A stretch of 47,359 bases of DNA from a virus, in the IMG/VR virus record IMGVR_UViG_3300031823_000012, positions 1 through 47,359 of that record; one strand, 5' to 3'. Both the position numbers and the translations under genes were made by a program. How positions within the stretch are numbered: the stretch's first letter is position 1; the number at the start of each line of letters is the position of its first letter. The notes under the pieces were generated by a model that had not been told where the DNA came from, searched no databases, and saw only the letters and a list, made by a program, of their open reading frames with translations. Positions 7,436 through 47,359 of this stretch are shown in pieces.

Positions 7436-8884
7436 ATGAGTGTCTTAGCTGCCCAGGGTGCACCTGTAGAGGTAACCCTTAAATATAAACCCATGCCTAA
7501 GCAGGCTGAGTTTCATGCGTTGAGCAAGAAGTACCGCTTCTTTGAGGGGGGTTGGGGTAACGGTAAGACATCGTGCGGGTGTGCTGAGGCACTTATGCTT
7601 GCGTTGGAATACCCGGGGTCGATGGGACTAATTGCTCGTCGTACACGTCCTGAGCTCCGTGCATCGACACAGAAAGTATTCTTCAAAGGCGGAGGCGGTG
7701 ACCCCGAGCTAGGGGACTTTACAGGATGTCCTGAAGAGCTGATACGCAAATTCAACAAGACAGAAGGTAAGCTTACTCTTATCAACGGGTCTGAAATACA
7801 TTTCTGGTCCCTTGATGACCCAGACAAGCTTAGCAATCTCAATCTCGGGTGGTTCTTAATCGACCAGGCCGAGGAGGTTCCTGAGGAAATGTTCCAGATG
7901 CTACAGGGACGCCTCAGGCAAGCAAACGCCCCTAGGTGTGGCCTTGTACTCGCTAATCCCAACGGCCACGACTGGATATGGTATCGCTGTGTAGCCCATC
8001 CCGAGAACTTCAAAGATCACGGTATGGTTCACGCGACCACTAGAGATAATCCTAATCTTCCAAAAGACTATGTTGAATCCCTAGAACGTATGCCGGCTAA
8101 GTGGGTCGAGCGATTTATGGAAGGATCGTTCGATGTGTTCAGCGGGCAGATTTGGCCAGAGTTCGACCCAGATATCCATGTGATAAGACCGTTCCTTGTA
8201 GATCTCAACTGGGAAATAATTGAGGGTATCGACCACGGTCGTAGGAATCCTACTGCGGTGTTATGGGCTGCGTTAGATGATAAGGGTAACTGTTTCATTG
8301 TGGATGAGCACTATGAGGCTGGGAGACTTGTTGGATATCACGCTAAGCAGATATTACAGACTAGGCTCCACTACAAACTACCTACATATACAGTTATTGA
8401 TGCCTCGGCTGCACAAAAAGATCCAAACACAGGAAGGAGTGTTATAGATGAGTACTGGGATAACGGAATATCTACTATCCCATCCGATCGTCACGTCCCT
8501 GCACGTATTAACCGTATCGCCGAATGGCTTATGCTTGACCCTAATCATCCCCACCCAATTACGGGTGAACTCAGAGACGAGGGTTGGCCGAAGCTTTACA
8601 TCTTCGCAAACTGCGTAGAGCTTGTAGAGCACATACAGCAATATCAGTGGAAGAAAAAGCCCCCGCAACAAGAGGAGGACGCAAAGGAGAGGCCTCTTGA
8701 GAAGGATGACCACGACGTCGATGCGTTAGGGTATATACTTATGACGAGGCCAATGCCCGCTACGCTTCCGGGAAAAGATGCCGTAATGACTCCAGCTGAG
8801 GCATACTGGATGAAAGTGAGAGAGCGTATGGACGGAGCAAGTTCAAGAGGAAGGGTACATTCTATGTTAGGAAGTGAGGCATGA
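7436..8884 (+). CDS. terL: Terminase large subunit
   Basis: This 482-residue DNA-packaging motor drives phage DNA into the prohead by ATP hydrolysis and cuts it. The ATPase domain shows Walker A GGWGNGKT (residues 38-45) and Walker B LGWFLIDQAEE (137-147). The nuclease domain shows acidic residues in EGIDHG (Asp266), VIDASA, and DHDVDALGY near the C-terminus, the RNase-H-like metal site. The length fits the family. It lies after the fibre genes and well upstream of the portal, an unusual order that leaves the small subunit about 4 kb away. It ends in an ATGA overlap with the next gene. Confidence 0.93.
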   Translation: MSVLAAQGAPVEVTLKYKPMPKQAEFHALSKKYRFFEGGWGNGKTSCGCAEALMLALEYPGSMGLIARRTRPELRASTQKVFFKGGGGDPELGDFTGCPEELIRKFNKTEGKLTLINGSEIHFWSLDDPDKLSNLNLGWFLIDQAEEVPEEMFQMLQGRLRQANAPRCGLVLANPNGHDWIWYRCVAHPENFKDHGMVHATTRDNPNLPKDYVESLERMPAKWVERFMEGSFDVFSGQIWPEFDPDIHVIRPFLVDLNWEIIEGIDHGRRNPTAVLWAALDDKGNCFIVDEHYEAGRLVGYHAKQILQTRLHYKLPTYTVIDASAAQKDPNTGRSVIDEYWDNGISTIPSDRHVPARINRIAEWLMLDPNHPHPITGELRDEGWPKLYIFANCVELVEHIQQYQWKKKPPQQEEDAKERPLEKDDHDVDALGYILMTRPMPATLPGKDAVMTPAEAYWMKVRERMDGASSRGRVHSMLGSEA

Positions 8885-9276: not shown

Positions 9277-9594
9277 ATGGGAACTGGCGCAGGTGATCTA
9301 AGTTTAGGGTCTTTCCAGGTTACTTTGACCAAAGAAAAAATTGCCCAGGCAGTTGAGCCTCCAGGTAATATACCGGGTAAAGAGAATCCCCAGATTTCCT
9401 CGTGCGTGGTTAAGGCAATGAAGGAAAACAAAGGCATAGTCTACCTAGGGAACGAAGAAACCGCTACCGAAGCCAAAGGCTTTGAACTCGCAGCTGGTGA
9501 AGGTTTGTCTATAGATGTGCTCGGGCTAGGCAAGTTGTGGTTTAACGGTACTAAAACCGGCGATAAGCTCTGCGTCATGTGGGTGGGTCCATGA
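9277..9594 (+). CDS. Small structural protein, possible decoration or fibre tip
   Basis: This 105-residue protein has a C-terminal pattern of strands (GFELAAGEGLSIDVLGLGKL, then VMWVG) typical of small phage proteins that carry a bounded beta-sandwich. It overlaps the collagen-like fibre gene by ATGA, so it is probably made together with the fibre. Its role is inferred from context. Confidence 0.5.
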   Translation: MGTGAGDLSLGSFQVTLTKEKIAQAVEPPGNIPGKENPQISSCVVKAMKENKGIVYLGNEETATEAKGFELAAGEGLSIDVLGLGKLWFNGTKTGDKLCVMWVGP

Positions 9595-10385
9595 GCGAGA
9601 TGGGTATGATAGGTGTAGGAGTAGGGGGGTCTACAGGCCCTGAAGGAGCTTGCGGAGCTGAAGGACCGCAGGGGAAAGAAGGTAAAACGGGAAAAGAAGG
9701 CCCTGCAGGCCCAACTGGTCCAACTGGAGCTGAAGGGAAAACTGGGCCACAGGGTCCTGTGGGCCCAGAAGGCCCAAAAGGAACCACAGGCGCCCAGGGA
9801 GCAACTGGCCCTACGGGCGCTGAAGGTCCTCGGGGGTTTACCGGTCCAGAAGGACCCAAAGGGGCCACTGGGGCTGAAGGGGCTAAAGGTGAAAAAGGGG
9901 TTGAAGGGACTAAAGGCGAAAAAGGTGCAACAGGTTTAACTGGGCCTGAAGGTAAAGAAGGCCCGAAAGGCAGTACAGGTAGTACGGGCAGTACAGGTAG
10001 TATTGGGCCCGAAGGGGCTACAGGCAAAGAAGGAGCTACAGGGCCTAAAGGAAGTACTGGGTTAGAAGGTCCTACTGGTAAAGAAGGTAAAGAAGGTAAA
10101 ACTGGCGCGACAGGGCCAGAAGGACCGGAAGGTGCAACCAGCGCTACAGTGAAAAAACATATTCCCCTCGAAACCGGGCAAAGTGTGGCCATGATTCTAG
10201 GGAAAGTCACCATAACTGCACCTGGGGTCACAGCAAAAGGCCCAATTATGCTTACACCTGAGGGGGGCATTGCGCTGGTAGGTACTATGACGGTAGCCGA
10301 ACGCAAAGTTGGGGAAGGATTTGTTGTGCTTTCAACCCTAACTACTGCTACGGCTAAGGTAAACTGGGCGGTGTATCCAGAATGA
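9591..10385 (+). CDS. Collagen-like fibre protein
   Basis: This 264-residue protein starts in the ATGA junction at 9591. Residues about 12-185 are nearly continuous Gly-X-Y triplets (for example GPTGPTGAEGKTGPQGPVGP), a collagen-like triple helix. A compact beta domain of about 75 residues follows (VKKHIPLETGQSVAMILG), probably the trimerisation or binding head. Such proteins form thin trimeric virion fibres that contact the host surface. The triplets favour Glu/Lys/Thr, unlike animal collagen. A companion collagen-type gene follows by ATGA overlap. Confidence 0.85.
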   Translation: MSEMGMIGVGVGGSTGPEGACGAEGPQGKEGKTGKEGPAGPTGPTGAEGKTGPQGPVGPEGPKGTTGAQGATGPTGAEGPRGFTGPEGPKGATGAEGAKGEKGVEGTKGEKGATGLTGPEGKEGPKGSTGSTGSTGSIGPEGATGKEGATGPKGSTGLEGPTGKEGKEGKTGATGPEGPEGATSATVKKHIPLETGQSVAMILGKVTITAPGVTAKGPIMLTPEGGIALVGTMTVAERKVGEGFVVLSTLTTATAKVNWAVYPE

Positions 10386-11173
10386 GCGATATCGAGTTTT
10401 ACTCGGGGGGGAGCGGGGGCGGAGGGTCCCCCAACGTTGAACCCACAGAAGAAGCAATCACGATCGCAGCTGCTGAAACTAAGAAAGTAAGCTTAGCTGA
10501 ACCTAAGTATTACAGAGTCACCCTCACGGGTAACGGAACCCTAGAATTTACTAACCCCTCGACAACTGTGGCTACGGGAATAGAGGTATTCTTAAAGCCA
10601 GAAGGCCACAAATTAACTGTGACCCTCGAAGGTAAAGCAATTAAATGGGTAGGAGAAGAAGAAAAACTTGAAGGGACAGAAAAACTTGTCACCCTACTCG
10701 TTCAAAACAAAGGGACTGAAATCTTAGGGATCGGACCTAAGGAAGGTAAAGAAGGTAAAGAAGGTAAAGAAGGTAAAGAAGGTAAAGAAGGGGCTAAAGG
10801 GGAAAAAGGGGTTGCTGGGGAAGCAGAACCTACATGGAAAGCAGTCGAAGAACTCAACGTTAACTTAAAAGAACAGAATGCAGTATCCGGTGAACCTAGG
10901 CCTATTTACAAATGCGCCATAAATGGTCAGAATGAAGTAAGAATTTTTGGGGTAGGACATGCGACTGCAGAAATAAAAGGGGGAGAAAAACTTTTCAAGC
11001 TACCTGTAGGAATGAGACCTAAAGGGAGACTGTATTTCCCCTTATATAACATAGAATCCGGAAACTACTTGGGTTTAGGGTATGTTAATGAAGCCGGCGA
11101 AGTCATAACTAACGAAAAAGTACCCAATACGGGTAGCCCTTTTATCAATTTAACCTTCCCTAAGGAATATTAG
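10382..11173 (+). CDS. Fibre protein with short collagen-like stretch
   Basis: This 263-residue protein has a Gly/Ser-rich start and a beta-rich N-terminal domain (about 25-115) resembling phage tail-fibre caps. A short collagen-like run (EGKEGKEGKEG, ending AKGEKGVAGE) follows at about 120-150, then a C-terminal beta domain (about 155-263) that may be the receptor-binding head. The short run is built on a perfect 9-bp tandem repeat, so length changes by slippage would remain in frame. It is coupled to the longer collagen-like fibre. Confidence 0.7.
   Translation: MSDIEFYSGGSGGGGSPNVEPTEEAITIAAAETKKVSLAEPKYYRVTLTGNGTLEFTNPSTTVATGIEVFLKPEGHKLTVTLEGKAIKWVGEEEKLEGTEKLVTLLVQNKGTEILGIGPKEGKEGKEGKEGKEGKEGAKGEKGVAGEAEPTWKAVEELNVNLKEQNAVSGEPRPIYKCAINGQNEVRIFGVGHATAEIKGGEKLFKLPVGMRPKGRLYFPLYNIESGNYLGLGYVNEAGEVITNEKVPNTGSPFINLTFPKEY
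10745..10789 (+). repeat. Five tandem 9-bp repeats in a fibre gene
   Basis: GGTAAAGAA is repeated five times without change and encodes Gly-Lys-Glu triplets. Identical codons across all copies indicate recent expansion or slippage rather than selection on protein alone. Confidence 0.9.
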
Positions 11174-33457: not shown

Positions 33458-33649
33458 TCACACGAGATTACTAAACCCCGTATGCTCTAACCTTATCATC
33501 CTAGCTTCAAGACAAATGCGACCTACCCATATCGGCTCTTGTCCTTCTAGTTGTTCTTGGATTACTCTCTCGAGCTCATGTGTCTCTATTAAACCTCGAA
33601 TGTAAGCATCCTTGATTTCTTGGATTCTAAGGTCACTACCAATCTTCAT
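33458..33649 (-). CDS. Small helical protein, unknown
   Basis: This 63-residue protein (MKIGSDLRIQEIKDAYIRGL and on) starts in an ATGA overlap with the end of the polymerase gene. A helical, charged N-terminus resembles short phage proteins annotated only as hypothetical. Its tight coupling to the polymerase suggests a replication accessory. Confidence 0.6.
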   Translation of the reverse strand: MKIGSDLRIQEIKDAYIRGLIETHELERVIQEQLEGQEPIWVGRICLEARMIRLEHTGFSNLV

Positions 33650-36015
33650 CGAGCGATACCCTCACTCCAATGTGTGCCTACCTCCACATCGACTACAAGA
33701 GGAACTGCGATGTCAGCGCCGAAAGCTTGCTTTATTTGTCTTGTCTCCTGCATGACTGATTTAATGTACGGTACTATATTGGATACATACTCGTCTTTAA
33801 TCTCAAAAAGAAGGGCATCGTGGACTGACCCGACAAGGCGTCCTTGCGCAGGTGGGAGCCATTTTCCCAGACGTACTGCTGCATTGAGACAAATATCGCT
33901 TGCGAGTCCCTGCACTACCGAATTAATAGCCTGGCGCTCAGCCTCAGTACGTGCAGAACGATTTGCGGAACTAATATCGGGTAAATGCCTTACCCGTCCT
34001 ATTGCGGTAACTACTTGCTTTTGAGACCTAGCTACACGAATCATGCGGTCGTGCCAAGATTTGAGTGCCGGGTAAGTTTCATGGAATCTCTTGTAAGTTA
34101 ATTCGGCTTCTTGGAGGGATATCGGGTGCCCGTTTTGGAAACAATACTCCTTATATTTCTCAGGTTTCATTGAAAAGAGAAGCCCGAAGTTTGGGTGCTT
34201 ACCCCAGATTACACGCTCGTCCTTACTGACAGATGTTCCTCCTGTTTTCAACAGAGAAAGCGCAGTCATGGTATGAAGATCTCGCCCTTCGCTGAGGATT
34301 TTGAGCATTATCTTCTCATTAGCAAGCATCGCAGCAAGGCGTAACTCTATCTGGGAGTAATCCGCCTCCACAAAAGTCCATCCCGGCCGGGATCCGACGA
34401 TACCTCGTATGAAACTGTCTCGTGGGACTTGCTGGAGGTTAGGTTCACTACTCGAGAGTCGCCCCGTAACGGTTCCGGTAAGTCGGTAACTAGGGTGTAT
34501 ACGGGAATGTGCATCAAGGCGCTGGGTCCAAGGAAGAAGGTAGGTGGAAAGGAACTTAGACCACTTTCGATACTTGAGCAAAGCTCGAACAGCTCGATGC
34601 TTCTCCGATAGCGAGAAGAGAACACTCTCCTTAGTAGATGGCGCACCTGTACTCGTCTCCTCAATGACTGGTAGTCCTAGTTCCTCAAATAGCCACACCC
34701 CGACTTGTTGGGGGGAATTAAAGTTGAGAGACTCTTTACCCGTGAACTCCGTCATGTATGCTTCAAGCCTAGAGATGATGAGTTCAGCCTTAACCGTCCG
34801 TGTTTTGAGACGAGTGCGATCGACGTATGTACCTCGCATCTCAAGCTCAGTAAATACTGCGGATGCCGGCATCATGAGCTTCTTAAATACACGCGCGAGG
34901 CGGGGTTGTTCCCTTAATTGCTCACGGAAAATGCGGTAAAGACGTAGGGTATAGTCACAGTCCTTACCGTTATAGATGGCAAGCGTCTTAAGGTCCTGAT
35001 TGTATGCGTCCTTGACGTCTATGTCGTAGTCGTCGGCTCCTAACAACATCTGTGCGAGCGGCTTAAGCCCCTTCGGGCGGTTCTCGTCAAGAAGATGAGC
35101 GGCAATCATGGTGTCGAACGTCACGGGTACGTAGATGCTGAACATCGCAAACCACTTAGCATCGAACTTGGCATTATGGGCGATGAAACGTTTAGTCTTA
35201 TCCTCGAATATAGGCCTGAGTGTCTTCTTTACTAGAGAAATCCACTTATGAGTACTTGAAAGTTCGGCGTGATTTACGGGGATGATCGCTGCCTCACCTA
35301 CTGCCCAAGCCACACCAATCGTGACGATGCGTGCCTCATCCTCCCACTCATGCAAGCCTGTGGTCTCGAGATCGAACGCTATTTCTGGGGCTCGTTGGAG
35401 TATCTTGATGAGGATTTGAAGCTGACGTCCTGTTCGGATAATGCGCGTGCGAGTGGTGAGGGCCGATTGAGTTGATCCGCTATAGAGTCGATGTACTCGG
35501 GCGAAATCGGCGCGTATTTGAGGGAGATAATGAGAGCTACGAAGGGCAGCCGCAGGATGAAACGTGCATATGGTTCGTGTGCCGCCCGACCCCCAAACTT
35601 TACCCCGGTACTTGGTAATTCCACTTCGGCCTGTGAGAGCCTGAAGCGCAGTGTTGCCGAGGCCGAGCACGATCTCAGACTGGGTCGAGTCAAGCTCTCG
35701 TTGAAGATATCCATTGCACTCCTTGACCTCTGCTTTTGTAGGGGTCCTGTTGTCGGGAGGTCTACATTTGACTGCGTTCGTGATGTAGCATTCCTCACGC
35801 GAGATCCCAATCTCCTTGAGAAGTTGCGTAAGAAGTTCACCAGCGGGTCCCACAAAGGCTGCATGTTCATCATCCTCTCTAGCGCCAGGTGCCTCACCTA
35901 CAATGACGAGCCTTACCTTACGTTTGCCAGAACCCATCAAGCACACATGTTGTGCTGTTTCATGTAGGGCACACTCAGTGCAGTTAGGGTTTCTTATTTT
36001 ATCCTGCCAGGTCAT
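33646..36015 (-). CDS. Family-4 uracil-DNA glycosylase fused to family-A DNA polymerase
   Basis: This 789-residue replicative enzyme carries two functions in one chain. Residues 1-175 form a complete family-4 UDG: Fe-S Cys12, Cys15, Cys84 and Cys100, GEAPG (Glu41), and FHPAA (His153). Residues about 205-370 form a 3'-5' exonuclease (Asp215/Glu217, Asp285, Asp354). Residues about 375-789 are the polymerase: motif A ADYSQIELR (Asp552), motif B with Lys606, Asn609, Phe610, and motif C VHD (His732, Asp733). The usual motif B Tyr is Phe614. No 5' nuclease domain is present. The fusion would remove uracil at the replication point. Confidence 0.93.
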   Translation of the reverse strand: MTWQDKIRNPNCTECALHETAQHVCLMGSGKRKVRLVIVGEAPGAREDDEHAAFVGPAGELLTQLLKEIGISREECYITNAVKCRPPDNRTPTKAEVKECNGYLQRELDSTQSEIVLGLGNTALQALTGRSGITKYRGKVWGSGGTRTICTFHPAAALRSSHYLPQIRADFARVHRLYSGSTQSALTTRTRIIRTGRQLQILIKILQRAPEIAFDLETTGLHEWEDEARIVTIGVAWAVGEAAIIPVNHAELSSTHKWISLVKKTLRPIFEDKTKRFIAHNAKFDAKWFAMFSIYVPVTFDTMIAAHLLDENRPKGLKPLAQMLLGADDYDIDVKDAYNQDLKTLAIYNGKDCDYTLRLYRIFREQLREQPRLARVFKKLMMPASAVFTELEMRGTYVDRTRLKTRTVKAELIISRLEAYMTEFTGKESLNFNSPQQVGVWLFEELGLPVIEETSTGAPSTKESVLFSLSEKHRAVRALLKYRKWSKFLSTYLLPWTQRLDAHSRIHPSYRLTGTVTGRLSSSEPNLQQVPRDSFIRGIVGSRPGWTFVEADYSQIELRLAAMLANEKIMLKILSEGRDLHTMTALSLLKTGGTSVSKDERVIWGKHPNFGLLFSMKPEKYKEYCFQNGHPISLQEAELTYKRFHETYPALKSWHDRMIRVARSQKQVVTAIGRVRHLPDISSANRSARTEAERQAINSVVQGLASDICLNAAVRLGKWLPPAQGRLVGSVHDALLFEIKDEYVSNIVPYIKSVMQETRQIKQAFGADIAVPLVVDVEVGTHWSEGIAR

Positions 36016-43127: not shown

Positions 43128-43381
43128 GGATTACGCCTTTCCATTCTCTGGAGAGTCTTTACCATGAGGCGACGACATGTCATCCCCTTATAGGGGGGAC
43201 TCCGTTCCACCCAAACATAAGGAGGATATAATGGTACTACCTTGTATTCATACCTGTTTTTATCGCTAAACAATACTACTACCTTGTATTCATACCTGTT
43301 TTTATCGCTAAACAATACTACCTTGTATTCATACCTGTTTTTATCGCTAAACAATACTACCTTGTATTTTACTTCGTCCAT
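43124..43381 (-). CDS. Protein with tandem 13-residue repeats
   Basis: This 85-residue protein begins with three near-identical copies of YKVVLFSDKNRYE (the last with one extra Val), encoded by 39-bp DNA repeats. The C-terminal part (LYPPYVWVERSPPYKGM) is unrelated. The reading frame is preserved through the repeats (units of 39, 42 and 39 bp), which supports translation, although the repeat could also be a duplicated regulatory element. It overlaps both neighbours. Confidence 0.5.
   Translation of the reverse strand: MDEVKYKVVLFSDKNRYEYKVVLFSDKNRYEYKVVVLFSDKNRYEYKVVPLYPPYVWVERSPPYKGMTCRRLMVKTLQRMERRNP
43236..43368. repeat. Tandem direct repeats, 39-bp unit, 3.3 copies
   Basis: Copies lie at 43236-43274, 43278-43316 and 43317-43355, with a partial copy to 43368. 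One extra ACT separates the first two. The copies are identical, so the duplication is recent. On the plus strand a perfect AAGGAGG followed by ATATAATG begins at the edge of the array, but the ORF it would open is only 12 codons long. Confidence 0.92.
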
Positions 43382-44757: not shown

Positions 44758-44863
44758 ATTGTCCCAGTACCTCCTTCGTCGTTCTACGTAAATTTATTAC
44801 CTTCCCATGTGCAAGTGCGTAATGTATGTCGTTCGTAGTTAAACTCAATCAAGGAGGCGAGTG

Positions 44864-45424
44864 GTGGATACCCTCGAGTTTTTGTTTAGGGTGTGGGGTC
44901 AACAGGCAGACGCGTTAGAGAAAGGCTCAGCATTTGTTTTCCTATCTTTGCGACGCGGGCCTAATGAATGGGAAGACCTTGCATATAAGTGGGCATGTGA
45001 CGAGATTGTAGTCCCGGATCCCCAGGAAGGCGACGTTTACTTTTGCCCTAACTTATTTATGCGGCCACGTAGGCGTAAGGAGTTAGTATTACCAAGCTGT
45101 TGGCTCTACGCCGACTTGGATAAGGTGAAACCCTATAAAGCTGAGCATATGGTACTAGGCCTATGCAGTCATGGTCATGGTCATCGTATGAACAGGGACC
45201 TTGAACCTTCAATTGCATGGGAATCCTCGCCGGGTAGGTACCAAGCTTTATGGCATCTCGATCGCCCTTTGCGTCCCCTTGAGCACAGTGCATTGAATCG
45301 CAAACTGTCCTGGGCACTGGGGGCAGATAAGGGTGGATGGGACATCACACAAGTACTACGTGTACCAGGAACGATCAATCACAAGTATGACGAGAAACCT
45401 GAGGTGAAGCTACTGTGGGCGTAA
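44864..45424 (+). CDS. RepB/AEP-type primase domain protein
   Basis: This 186-residue protein starts at the second of two GTGs (MDTLEFLFRVWGQQADALEK), six bases after AAGGAGG. WLYADLDKV gives the metal-binding Asp pair, and ESSPGRYQALWHLDRPL and DITQVLRVPGTINHK are the phrases of plasmid RepB-like and archaeo-eukaryotic-type primases that lay primers. It overlaps the helicase start by ten bases, so the two are translated as a pair. Primase and ATPase are often one chain in other phages. Confidence 0.78.
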   Translation: MDTLEFLFRVWGQQADALEKGSAFVFLSLRRGPNEWEDLAYKWACDEIVVPDPQEGDVYFCPNLFMRPRRRKELVLPSCWLYADLDKVKPYKAEHMVLGLCSHGHGHRMNRDLEPSIAWESSPGRYQALWHLDRPLRPLEHSALNRKLSWALGADKGGWDITQVLRVPGTINHKYDEKPEVKLLWA

Positions 45425-46803
45425 TCTCAGTAGTTGACCTCGAAAAAATACTAAGCAATGTACAAGTTCCCGTATTACATGCGCGAGGCGAGTCGAACGG
45501 GGAGGTCGCCAGCGCATCACCACGTGAGATCTATAGAAATTACAAAGATGTAATCCCCCGTGCAGTTGTAGCAAAGTTAAGTGCGAGTACTGCGGTTGGC
45601 GACCGTTCGAAGGTTCTCTGGAAGCTCACAAATGCTTTGCTGGAAGCAGGACTAACACCCGGCGAGGTCGTAGTGCTTGTTGAGAAGACTGTTTGGAATA
45701 AGTTTGGGGAGGATCGGTCTCGACTATGGGGTGATGTAAACAAGGCGGCGGCCAAAATACATCAAGCGACGTCCTCCGAGAACGGTCATAGAGACACCCG
45801 CACGGTGCCTTGGTCCATCCCTCTTGATCGTTATCTTGCGGTTGAGTCACGGGATCCTCAGTGGATGATAGAAGGTTTATGGTCGGATAAGTCGCACGGC
45901 ATTATTGCAGGTGAGCCAAAGACACGCAAGTCGTACATGGCTATCGACATAGCTCTATCAGTAGCCACAGGTACAAAGTGTCTCGGTTATTTTCCTGTAG
46001 TTAAGTCCGGTCCCGTTCTAATGATACAAGAGGAGATCTCAGATGCCGAGATGCGCAAGCGACTGCGATACATCGCTACATCTAAAGGCCTAGGGGGAAA
46101 GGTGGAGCAGGGAGATGATGGTATCTCAGTACACTTACCCCGACCCGTTCCGCTTTACTTAAGGAACAGGCAACAATTTAATTTGTCATCTGCCGATTGC
46201 CTGGAGGAAGTATGTAAGGAAATTGAAGCCAAAAAAATCTGTCTCGTTGTCTTTGACCCGCTCCAAATGATGCTCGGACAAATTGACGAGAATCGAGCAT
46301 CTGAGGTACGTTCAGTCTTGGTTGAACTTTTGAAACTGAAGGAGAAAACTGGGTGCGGGATCATGATCGTTCATCACTACTCAAAGGCATCTACAACAAA
46401 CCCCAAATTTGGGGGTCAACGTATGCTTGGCTCTCAAGCTTTTCATGGTTGGGTTGAGTCAGCTTTATACCTTAGTAAGCCCGATAAGTATACTACTTTA
46501 GTCGAGCGCGAGTTCCGTAATTTCGAGCTTGCTGAGGACTTTAGTATCGAGTATATAGGGGGGGAAGAAGCGTATGAGGTCGAAGTTAGTGAGAAGAAAC
46601 CCCAAACAACGCGAAAGCAACCCCCTAATGACTTTGAGTTACTTTGCTTGAAGCATGAGGGAGTCTCACTTAAAGTTTTGGCTAGACATTTGGGTAAGGC
46701 TGAGAAGACAATTGGGAAGCGGATCGAAGAATCCCGTCATGTGAGTTTAGGCAAAAAACAGGATACAACGGGGCGTCCAAAAGTTGTCGTGATAAGGCGA
46801 TGA
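45415..46803 (+). CDS. RepA-like hexameric helicase / AAA ATPase
   Basis: This 462-residue protein starts at GTG inside the primase gene. The N-terminal region (about 35-125) contains a helical PriCT-like domain. The RecA-like ATPase core shows Walker A GEPKTRKS (166-173) and Walker B LVVFDPLQMML (about 285-295), and IVHHYSK completes the RepA/DnaB-like pattern. The C-terminal 60 residues form a helix-turn-helix (VLARHLGKAEKTIGKRIEES), suited to DNA binding. Iterons begin ten bases past the stop codon, so it is the likely origin-recruited helicase. Confidence 0.82.
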   Translation: MGVISVVDLEKILSNVQVPVLHARGESNGEVASASPREIYRNYKDVIPRAVVAKLSASTAVGDRSKVLWKLTNALLEAGLTPGEVVVLVEKTVWNKFGEDRSRLWGDVNKAAAKIHQATSSENGHRDTRTVPWSIPLDRYLAVESRDPQWMIEGLWSDKSHGIIAGEPKTRKSYMAIDIALSVATGTKCLGYFPVVKSGPVLMIQEEISDAEMRKRLRYIATSKGLGGKVEQGDDGISVHLPRPVPLYLRNRQQFNLSSADCLEEVCKEIEAKKICLVVFDPLQMMLGQIDENRASEVRSVLVELLKLKEKTGCGIMIVHHYSKASTTNPKFGGQRMLGSQAFHGWVESALYLSKPDKYTTLVEREFRNFELAEDFSIEYIGGEEAYEVEVSEKKPQTTRKQPPNDFELLCLKHEGVSLKVLARHLGKAEKTIGKRIEESRHVSLGKKQDTTGRPKVVVIRR

Positions 46804-46812
46804 CTAGGAACG

Positions 46813-46941
46813 ATCCGCAAACCCTATGGTCCTAGTTGGACTTTTCCCTGCAATGGGCAAATCCGCAAACCCCCCGTAGCATTCAATCCGCAAACTATCC
46901 GTAAAAAATCCGCAAACCCCACTGGGTATATCCGCAAACCC
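46813..46941 (+). repeat. Iteron array, probable replication origin
   Basis: Five direct copies of ATCCGCAAACC(C) start at 46813, 46861, 46886, 46908 and 46930; the copy at 46886 ends in ACTA. A decayed copy (ATCCGTAAAA) lies at 46897. Spacings of 25, 22 and 22 bp place the last four on nearly one face of the helix. The array directly follows the primase/RepA-like operon, the usual place for a plasmid-type origin. The phage initiator has not been identified. The HTH tail of the RepA-like protein is one candidate. Confidence 0.8.
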
Positions 46942-46955
46942 CTCTCATCGCGTGC

Positions 46956-46982
46956 GCTGCTAGGGGTTTTCAACCCCGCAGC
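46956..46982. other. Hairpin beside the iterons
   Basis: GCTGC-TA-GGGGTT-TTC-AACCCC-GCAGC forms an 11-bp interrupted stem with a three-base loop and a two-base bulge. No U-run follows, so a terminator is less likely than a single-strand initiation or origin-structure role, though the latter is an inference. Confidence 0.6.
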
Positions 46983-47232
46983 AGGCGCCGCGTGGGGGTA
47001 CGCGCGAGGAACAAAATTAGTTTGGAGTGATGATTAGGTTGATGAGGGAGGGTTCTCCCATGAGTTTCCAAAGTTCGGAGGGGATGCGGATACGGTTGGT
47101 TACTTTTGCTATGGGTTGTGTGGATGTTTCGGTGAAGCAGATGTGGGACTTACTGTCTTTTGTATCGTCTCGAGCATAGGTGCAGAAATGCTGGAAATAG
47201 GAGGTTGGGGTTGAGGTTGGGATTGGGGGTGA
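46983..47232. other. Intergenic stretch past the origin
   Basis: A G-rich, moderately AT-rich segment (aattagtttggagtgatg near 47016) follows the hairpin. On the plus strand I see no gene. On the minus strand one open frame covers it (next entry). An AT-rich unwinding element could lie at 47011-47040, but it is not strongly marked. Confidence 0.35.
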
Positions 47233-47262
47233 GGGCGGGTTTGGGGTTGGAGCCGCATTGTC
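47017..47262 (-). CDS. Open frame without a start codon, spans the contig junction
   Basis: A frame of 82 codons ends at TAA 47017-47019. It runs from a TAA at 31-33 (equivalent to 47263-47265) and has no ATG, GTG or TTG near its beginning. Its second half reads like real protein (VTNRIRIPSELWKLMGEPSL, then INLIITPN). The frame continues past the TAA into a 67-codon ORF (start at 234). It could be a broken gene, a gene read by frameshift from the ATG at 20-22 (minus strand, numbered in the left copy), or chance. Confidence 0.3.
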   Translation of the reverse strand, partial: DNAAPTPNPPSPPIPTSTPTSYFQHFCTYARDDTKDSKSHICFTETSTQPIAKVTNRIRIPSELWKLMGEPSLINLIITPN

Positions 47263-47359
47263 TTATCTTGTTCTTTCTTTTTGTCGTTTGAGTGTTTGAT
47301 GCGTCGATCGATGTGTTTGCGTTACGTCCTGGGACGTTGTAGGAACGTTTGTAGGACGA
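47233..47359. repeat. Terminal direct repeat, right copy
   Basis: This is an exact copy of bases 1-127. The unique genome length is therefore 47,232 bp if the overlap is an assembly product. Confidence 0.95.

Follow-up and report, generated by a model that had tools for sequence, protein, structure and literature searches.

A candidate replication origin of iterons and a hairpin behind the split primase and RepA-like helicase genes of a short-tailed phage

Directly behind adjacent genes for an AEP primase and a RepA-like ring helicase, the virus record IMGVR_UViG_3300031823_000012 of IMG/VR (analysed over all of its 47,359 nucleotides, hereafter the window) carries five short direct repeats followed by a GC-rich hairpin. 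This arrangement is most readily explained as the replication origin of a phage, at which the helicase binds the repeats directly and priming begins at the hairpin or close to it; we assign this reading a probability of about 0.72. Directly established are the families to which the enzymes belong and their predicted folds, an intact set of primase motif residues, the presence of repeats and hairpin, and the order of these elements in four relatives. A P22-like portal is consistent with the short-tailed phage proposed in an initial annotation of this DNA. The origin would belong to a general type already known, with its parts newly combined and the arrangement conserved within the lineage; the interpretation given in the initial annotation is partly supported. 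No paper on this origin in this phage family was found in the open-access literature. The features concerned are the following.

44861..45424, + strand: AEP primase (RepB'-like), P0001; GTG start, 187 aa; Pfam RepB_primase, E 1.9e-8
45415..45424, + strand: overlap of the primase and ATPase genes, 10 bases, GTGGGCGTAA
45415..46803, + strand: RepA-like ring ATPase/helicase, P0002; GTG start, 462 aa; Pfam AAA_25, E 3.8e-31
46813..46823, + strand: iteron 1, ATCCGCAAACC
46861..46871, + strand: iteron 2, ATCCGCAAACC
46886..46895, + strand: iteron 3, ATCCGCAAAC, then T
46897..46906, + strand: degenerate copy, ATCCGTAAAA, 11 bp from each neighbour
46908..46918, + strand: iteron 4, ATCCGCAAACC
46930..46940, + strand: iteron 5, ATCCGCAAACC
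about 46942..47012, no strand: GC-rich branched hairpin, inner stem GCTGC-GGGGTT/AACCCC-GCAGC
7436-8884: large terminase
33646-36015: family-A DNA polymerase

The primase reading frame was taken from the GTG at 44861; the initial annotation begins at another GTG, at 44864. In profile searches P0001 matched residues 6-179 of the family phrog_3123 (E 8.1e-42), and its residues D85, D87, and S123 are invariant among 37 relatives. Its AF2 model (pLDDT 91.9) has as nearest solved structure RepB' of RSF1010 (3h20; Z 16.1, rmsd 2.5 over 153 residues), with a further profile match to 3h25 (E 6.8e-5). P0002 matched residues 211-546 of the same family (E 2.8e-72); the nearest solved structure to its predicted fold (AF2 pLDDT 86.9) is RSF1010 RepA (1g8y; Z 22.7, rmsd 2.6 over 223 residues), to which it also has a profile match (E 2.7e-11). 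The overlapping gene pair and the RSF1010-type enzymes that had been claimed for this region are thus both present. P0002 comprises an N-terminal helical domain (36-122), a RecA core (137-395), and a C-terminal winged helix (about 403-462), the first and last of which fall outside the segment that aligns with RSF1010 RepA. The C-terminal domain is predicted from the AF2 order of helices (406-413, 419-426, and 430-439) and strands (443-446 and 457-460), a helix-helix-helix-strand-strand unit read as a winged helix; the profile of the relatives at this end matches winged-helix regulators weakly (E 0.02-0.06), and the VIA-align list for P0002, dominated by the RecA domain, is uninformative on this point. 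That this C-terminal helix-turn-helix serves as the initiator, as had been suggested earlier, is a plausible guess.

For comparison, four genomes with capsids related to that of the window were used: G001, which is syntenic with the window genome-wide; G005 and G004, found by capsid searches; and G012 (also L025; capsid 55%). A further genome, G011, differs very little from G004 and is hence not independent. The rep proteins of G001, G005, and G012 are 58, 51, and 38% identical to that of the window, respectively; in G004 the helicase has been replaced.

P0001 and P0002 are the two halves of the phrog_3123 primase-helicase, encoded in two adjacent open reading frames. With few exceptions, the halves lie in one frame at 80 IMG/VR loci and in several named phages; the split is seen in the window, G001, and G005, and the G012 protein is fused. 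Because nearly all relatives are fused, the split is derived and not, as first assumed, the usual layout. Sequencing error was ruled out as its cause, the ATPase start codon overlapping the primase stop in both G001 (58% identity) and G005 (51%). Locus L031 also appears split, but its sequence contains N and the split may be an error. A search by tblastn (1e-5) placed phrog_3123 in 304 phage records vs one weak match among 72,556 plasmids, which makes the earlier label of a plasmid-style replicon misleading, and a profile of three siblings found no relative in bacterial genomes. Nor is the pairing with a phage DNA polymerase unusual, as had been thought: in the Pseudomonas phages PMBT14 and Almagne, the fused protein is encoded in one cluster with a DNA polymerase and genes of nucleotide metabolism, and the co-occurrence is therefore ordinary. 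The phrog_3123 proteins of phages such as Pseudomonas PMBT14 and those of Serratia, Gordonia, and Microbacterium are homologous to the window pair and have the same domain order; they are fused, whereas the window genes are split, and only a few of the genes are immediately followed by repeats. The literature searched held no description of an iteron origin for these phages.

The sequence ATCCGCAAAC occurs in five exact copies in the 47-kb window (46813, 46861, 46886, 46908, and 46930), all on the + strand and none elsewhere, and four of the five extend to the full 11-mer ATCCGCAAACC. The array begins 10 bases past the ATPase stop, exactly as initially annotated; its description as regularly spaced holds, nearly, for the last four copies only, the successive spacings being 48, 25, 22, and 22. 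When the window was dinucleotide-shuffled 50 times, no 10-mer reached a third copy within 140 bp. A four-copy cluster does exist at one other site of the real window, and repeats as such are therefore not unique. A scan of IMG/VR for the iteron pair returned 13 contigs, none with the system of the window. In an unrelated phage, an array of TCCGCAAACCTATC with 12/24/48-bp spacing lies between terminase- and portal-like genes (L018 3460-3570, minus strand); that its core is shared with the window iterons is probably coincidence.

The hairpin reported behind the repeats is real, and it extends to about 47012, past the end first given for it. As a 95-nt DNA fold it has an energy of -24.6 kcal/mol (z -3.2), and 0 of 200 shuffles were equally stable; its 3' strand, ACGCGCGAGG, is common to the siblings. 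The branched hairpin of G001 is more pronounced (z -6.3), and that of G005 is weak when taken alone (z -1.4). Pairing has been kept while the sequence changed: between the window and G001 the inner stem passes from GCTGC/GCAGC to GACGC/GCGTC, with two pairs altered on both strands, and the apical stem is fully replaced with its pairing retained in the window, G001, and G005. The minimum-energy fold of the window is not the three-way form of G001, which would be approximately 1-4 kcal/mol costlier. A gathering-threshold scan with Rfam found tRNA only, and no clear AT-rich unwinding stretch was seen in the region, which is about 50% GC. The record carries a 127-bp exact direct terminal repeat (1-127 and 47233-47359), probably the k-mer overlap of a circular assembly with a closed map; the hairpin is therefore probably internal to the genome and not at one of its true ends.

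The order of rep stop, short repeats, and GC-rich hairpin was found in all four siblings (G001, G005, G012, and G004). In G001, three [AG]TCTTGAAAAC repeats with a spacing of 31-32 directly follow rep and precede the branched hairpin; the hairpin of G005 is preceded by six TACCG-type sites, of which three read TACCGCAACC. In G004 (L129 4286-5323) the phrog_3123 helicase is exchanged for an AAA_25 ATPase of a different PHROG. Its primase retains the helical domain, and a replacement of the helicase with the downstream layout kept is therefore indicated. The window core GCAAACC, with one mismatch allowed, has nine matches in the four sibling regions (402 bp), a single one of them in G004, compared to a mean of 1.3 and a maximum of 5 in shuffles (n=300) and a mean of 0.8 and a maximum of 4 in random tiles (n=300); the test is slightly weakened in that the siblings were already part of the joint motif search that first yielded the core, and in that their regions were selected by eye beforehand. 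With the longer iteron cores CCGCAAAC and CGCAAACC the outcome was unchanged (5 matches vs 0.2-0.4 expected). Between siblings, the winged helix is 37-38% identical vs 60-65% for the RecA core, as expected if recognition tracks the changing repeats; plain relaxed constraint could also explain the faster divergence. This sibling set, with several iteron sequences and one helicase swap, provides natural material for the study of helicase-iteron specificity.

In the wider family, at least three repeats directly downstream of the gene were found at 6 of 84 loci vs 90 of 1718 other tiles. There is thus no enrichment, iterons behind the gene are unsupported as a general family rule, and the layout therefore belongs to the lineage of the window and a few others. 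Downstream hairpins with z below -3 are commoner behind family genes (14 of 85) than in control tiles (5 of 154), and some of them may be terminators. Outside the lineage, L043 and L057/L058 are clear cases of downstream repeats. At L043 (6193-6480), in another phage, the fused primase-helicase gene is immediately followed by nine to ten copies of TGCACAAGTGG around a long hairpin, which makes the locus a candidate second origin of such layout. At L057/L058, five copies of AACTAAGGTAA with 33-bp spacing lie behind the fused gene, and L057 6311-6900 holds AACTAAGGTAAGCAAA-type repeats (five, 33-bp-spaced), beyond which ATTTCGCGC sites are numerous in either orientation.

If the preferred reading of a helicase-bound origin is correct, the RepA-like ATPase would bind the GCAAACC-type iterons behind its own gene through its C-terminal winged helix. 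Several ATPase subunits would gather there, aided by iteron spacings close to whole numbers of helical turns, and, as the RepA fold suggests, would load as a hexameric ring onto locally melted DNA. Upon strand parting the hairpin would form and, by analogy to the ssi sites of RSF1010, mark the site of the first primer made by the RepB'-like primase; the helicase would keep this primase in place, as fusion does in the relatives. Given the presence of its gene in the genome, the family-A polymerase of the phage would then presumably extend the primer. A broader proposal, to which we give somewhat less than even odds, is that a RecA-fold (RepA/DnaB-like) helicase acts as its own sequence-specific initiator through a C-terminal winged helix, without a loader or separate initiator, and binds iterons behind its gene, with an AEP primase starting at a branched hairpin, and that such a module tolerates fission between primase and helicase and, as in G004, helicase replacement while the origin layout is kept.

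Each step of this scheme has a published precedent in a known system. The origin scheme of RSF1010 (IncQ; RepB', RepA, RepC, and ssiA/ssiB) involves iterons and a stem-loop, with priming at ssi hairpins (PMC4234260). As in the window, iterons and a stem-loop lie in the RSF1010 origin, and the primase and ring helicase are separate proteins, of the same folds as far as the models indicate. RSF1010 has RepC in addition (its profile, PF06504, was silent in the window and G001, and likewise in control genomes) and two ssi hairpins, one per strand; in the window one hairpin region was seen, where a second ssi of unrecognized sequence could escape. Unlike RSF1010, the window has a helicase with a predicted winged helix of its own, a candidate origin directly behind the helicase gene, and a phage polymerase. 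The layout, which had been called RSF1010-like, is in this position directly 3' of the presumed initiator-helicase gene closer to those of SaPI, SCCmec, and pRN1. In the Rep-ori of SaPI and the Cch2-ori of SCCmec, the C-terminal domain of the helicase recognizes iterons just downstream of its own gene and a partner primase is involved; the SCCmec region also contains inverted repeats, and Cch2 is a 3'-5' helicase that has been compared with MCM (PMC7581432). The window matches them in iteron position (10 bp behind the stop) and has a predicted winged helix at the corresponding end, but its helicase is a RecA-fold relative of RepA/DnaB and not of the SaPI Rep/Cch class. Orf904 of pRN1 and a protein of phage BIP-1 combine AEP primase, helicase, and winged helix, and the origin of pRN1 is a large stem-loop on the 3' side of the gene, diverging in stem sequence with its structure kept (PMC4234260). 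The same retention of structure in a 3' stem-loop is seen in the lineage of the window, and both have an AEP primase; pRN1, however, uses an SF3 helicase and an origin without iterons, in contrast to the RecA-fold helicase and iterons of the window. The alpha protein of satellite phage P4 likewise unites primase and helicase with a winged helix by which repeats at the origin are bound, though its primase is of the Toprim type (PMC4234260) and that of the window has the AEP fold. For AEP fusions with RepA helicases and winged helices, a role in origin recognition has been suggested (PMC5862659). By analogy, the window origin probably works as the replicons of SaPI, SCCmec, P4, and pRN1 do, but with enzymes of the RSF1010 type.

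Other functions of the repeats and hairpin were weighed against this interpretation. Repeats beside rep genes often act in copy control, as is established for iteron plasmids, and on this precedent the window repeats might be operators, serving either a phage repressor or the autoregulation of rep, with the hairpin a terminator or RNA element and the origin elsewhere, such as the divergent region near 44.8 kb. The GC skew, proposed earlier as a check for an origin near 46.9 kb, bears on both readings. In both full genomes its minimum falls at the 5' end of the rep gene, which favours an origin beside rep; in the window it lies at 44808, within the divergent upstream region and 2 kb from the iterons, and it coincides with the switch in gene direction. 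The repeats, however, sit behind the gene, where they are unable to block the rep promoter; no iterons were found upstream of the rep genes in the window, nor any exact or one-mismatch copy near the rep promoter region; the hairpin is without a following T run and drew no call from the terminator scan; and the siblings keep the order though the repeat sequence differs. An operator function is for these reasons considered unlikely.

Slightly less likely again is a scheme closer to that of RSF1010, in which the iterons are bound by a separate, unrecognized phage protein of the RepC type, leaving the RepA-like protein with the helicase function only. The kinship of both enzymes to RepB' and RepA would accommodate such a protein, as would the many small open reading frames of the window with no assigned function. 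Neither RepC nor Rep_3 was matched in the window or G001 (the RepC control was silent too), and the ATPase has helical and winged-helix domains beyond its RepA-aligned part, of which the winged helix diverges together with the repeats. Phage packaging sites may also contain short repeats, as does lambda cosB, and the element could be conceived of as a pac/cos-like site for the small terminase; with the large terminase about 8 kb off on the circular map, and the element trailing the rep gene in every sibling examined, this is the least probable explanation.

Should the winged helix read the iterons, origin recognition, unwinding, and priming would be united in one small module, and a minireplicon of roughly 2.2 kb would allow a direct bench test. 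The primase-helicase concerned is carried by hundreds of sequenced phages, where it is commonly labelled 'DNA recombinase' or 'RecA-like'; none of the records seen assigns these phages an origin or initiator.

Other features of the window were observed in passing. The protein encoded at 33646-36015 joins an N-terminal uracil-DNA-glycosylase-like domain to 3'-5' exonuclease and family-A polymerase domains. Between two genes at 43235-43368 lies a 39-bp tandem repeat of 3.4 copies; the flanking genes are nearly adjacent in G001, and the array is therefore an insertion or expansion in the window phage. At 9579-11173, two adjacent proteins are encoded with 9-bp DNA repeats, the first matching collagen-like tail fibre families strongly and the second weakly.
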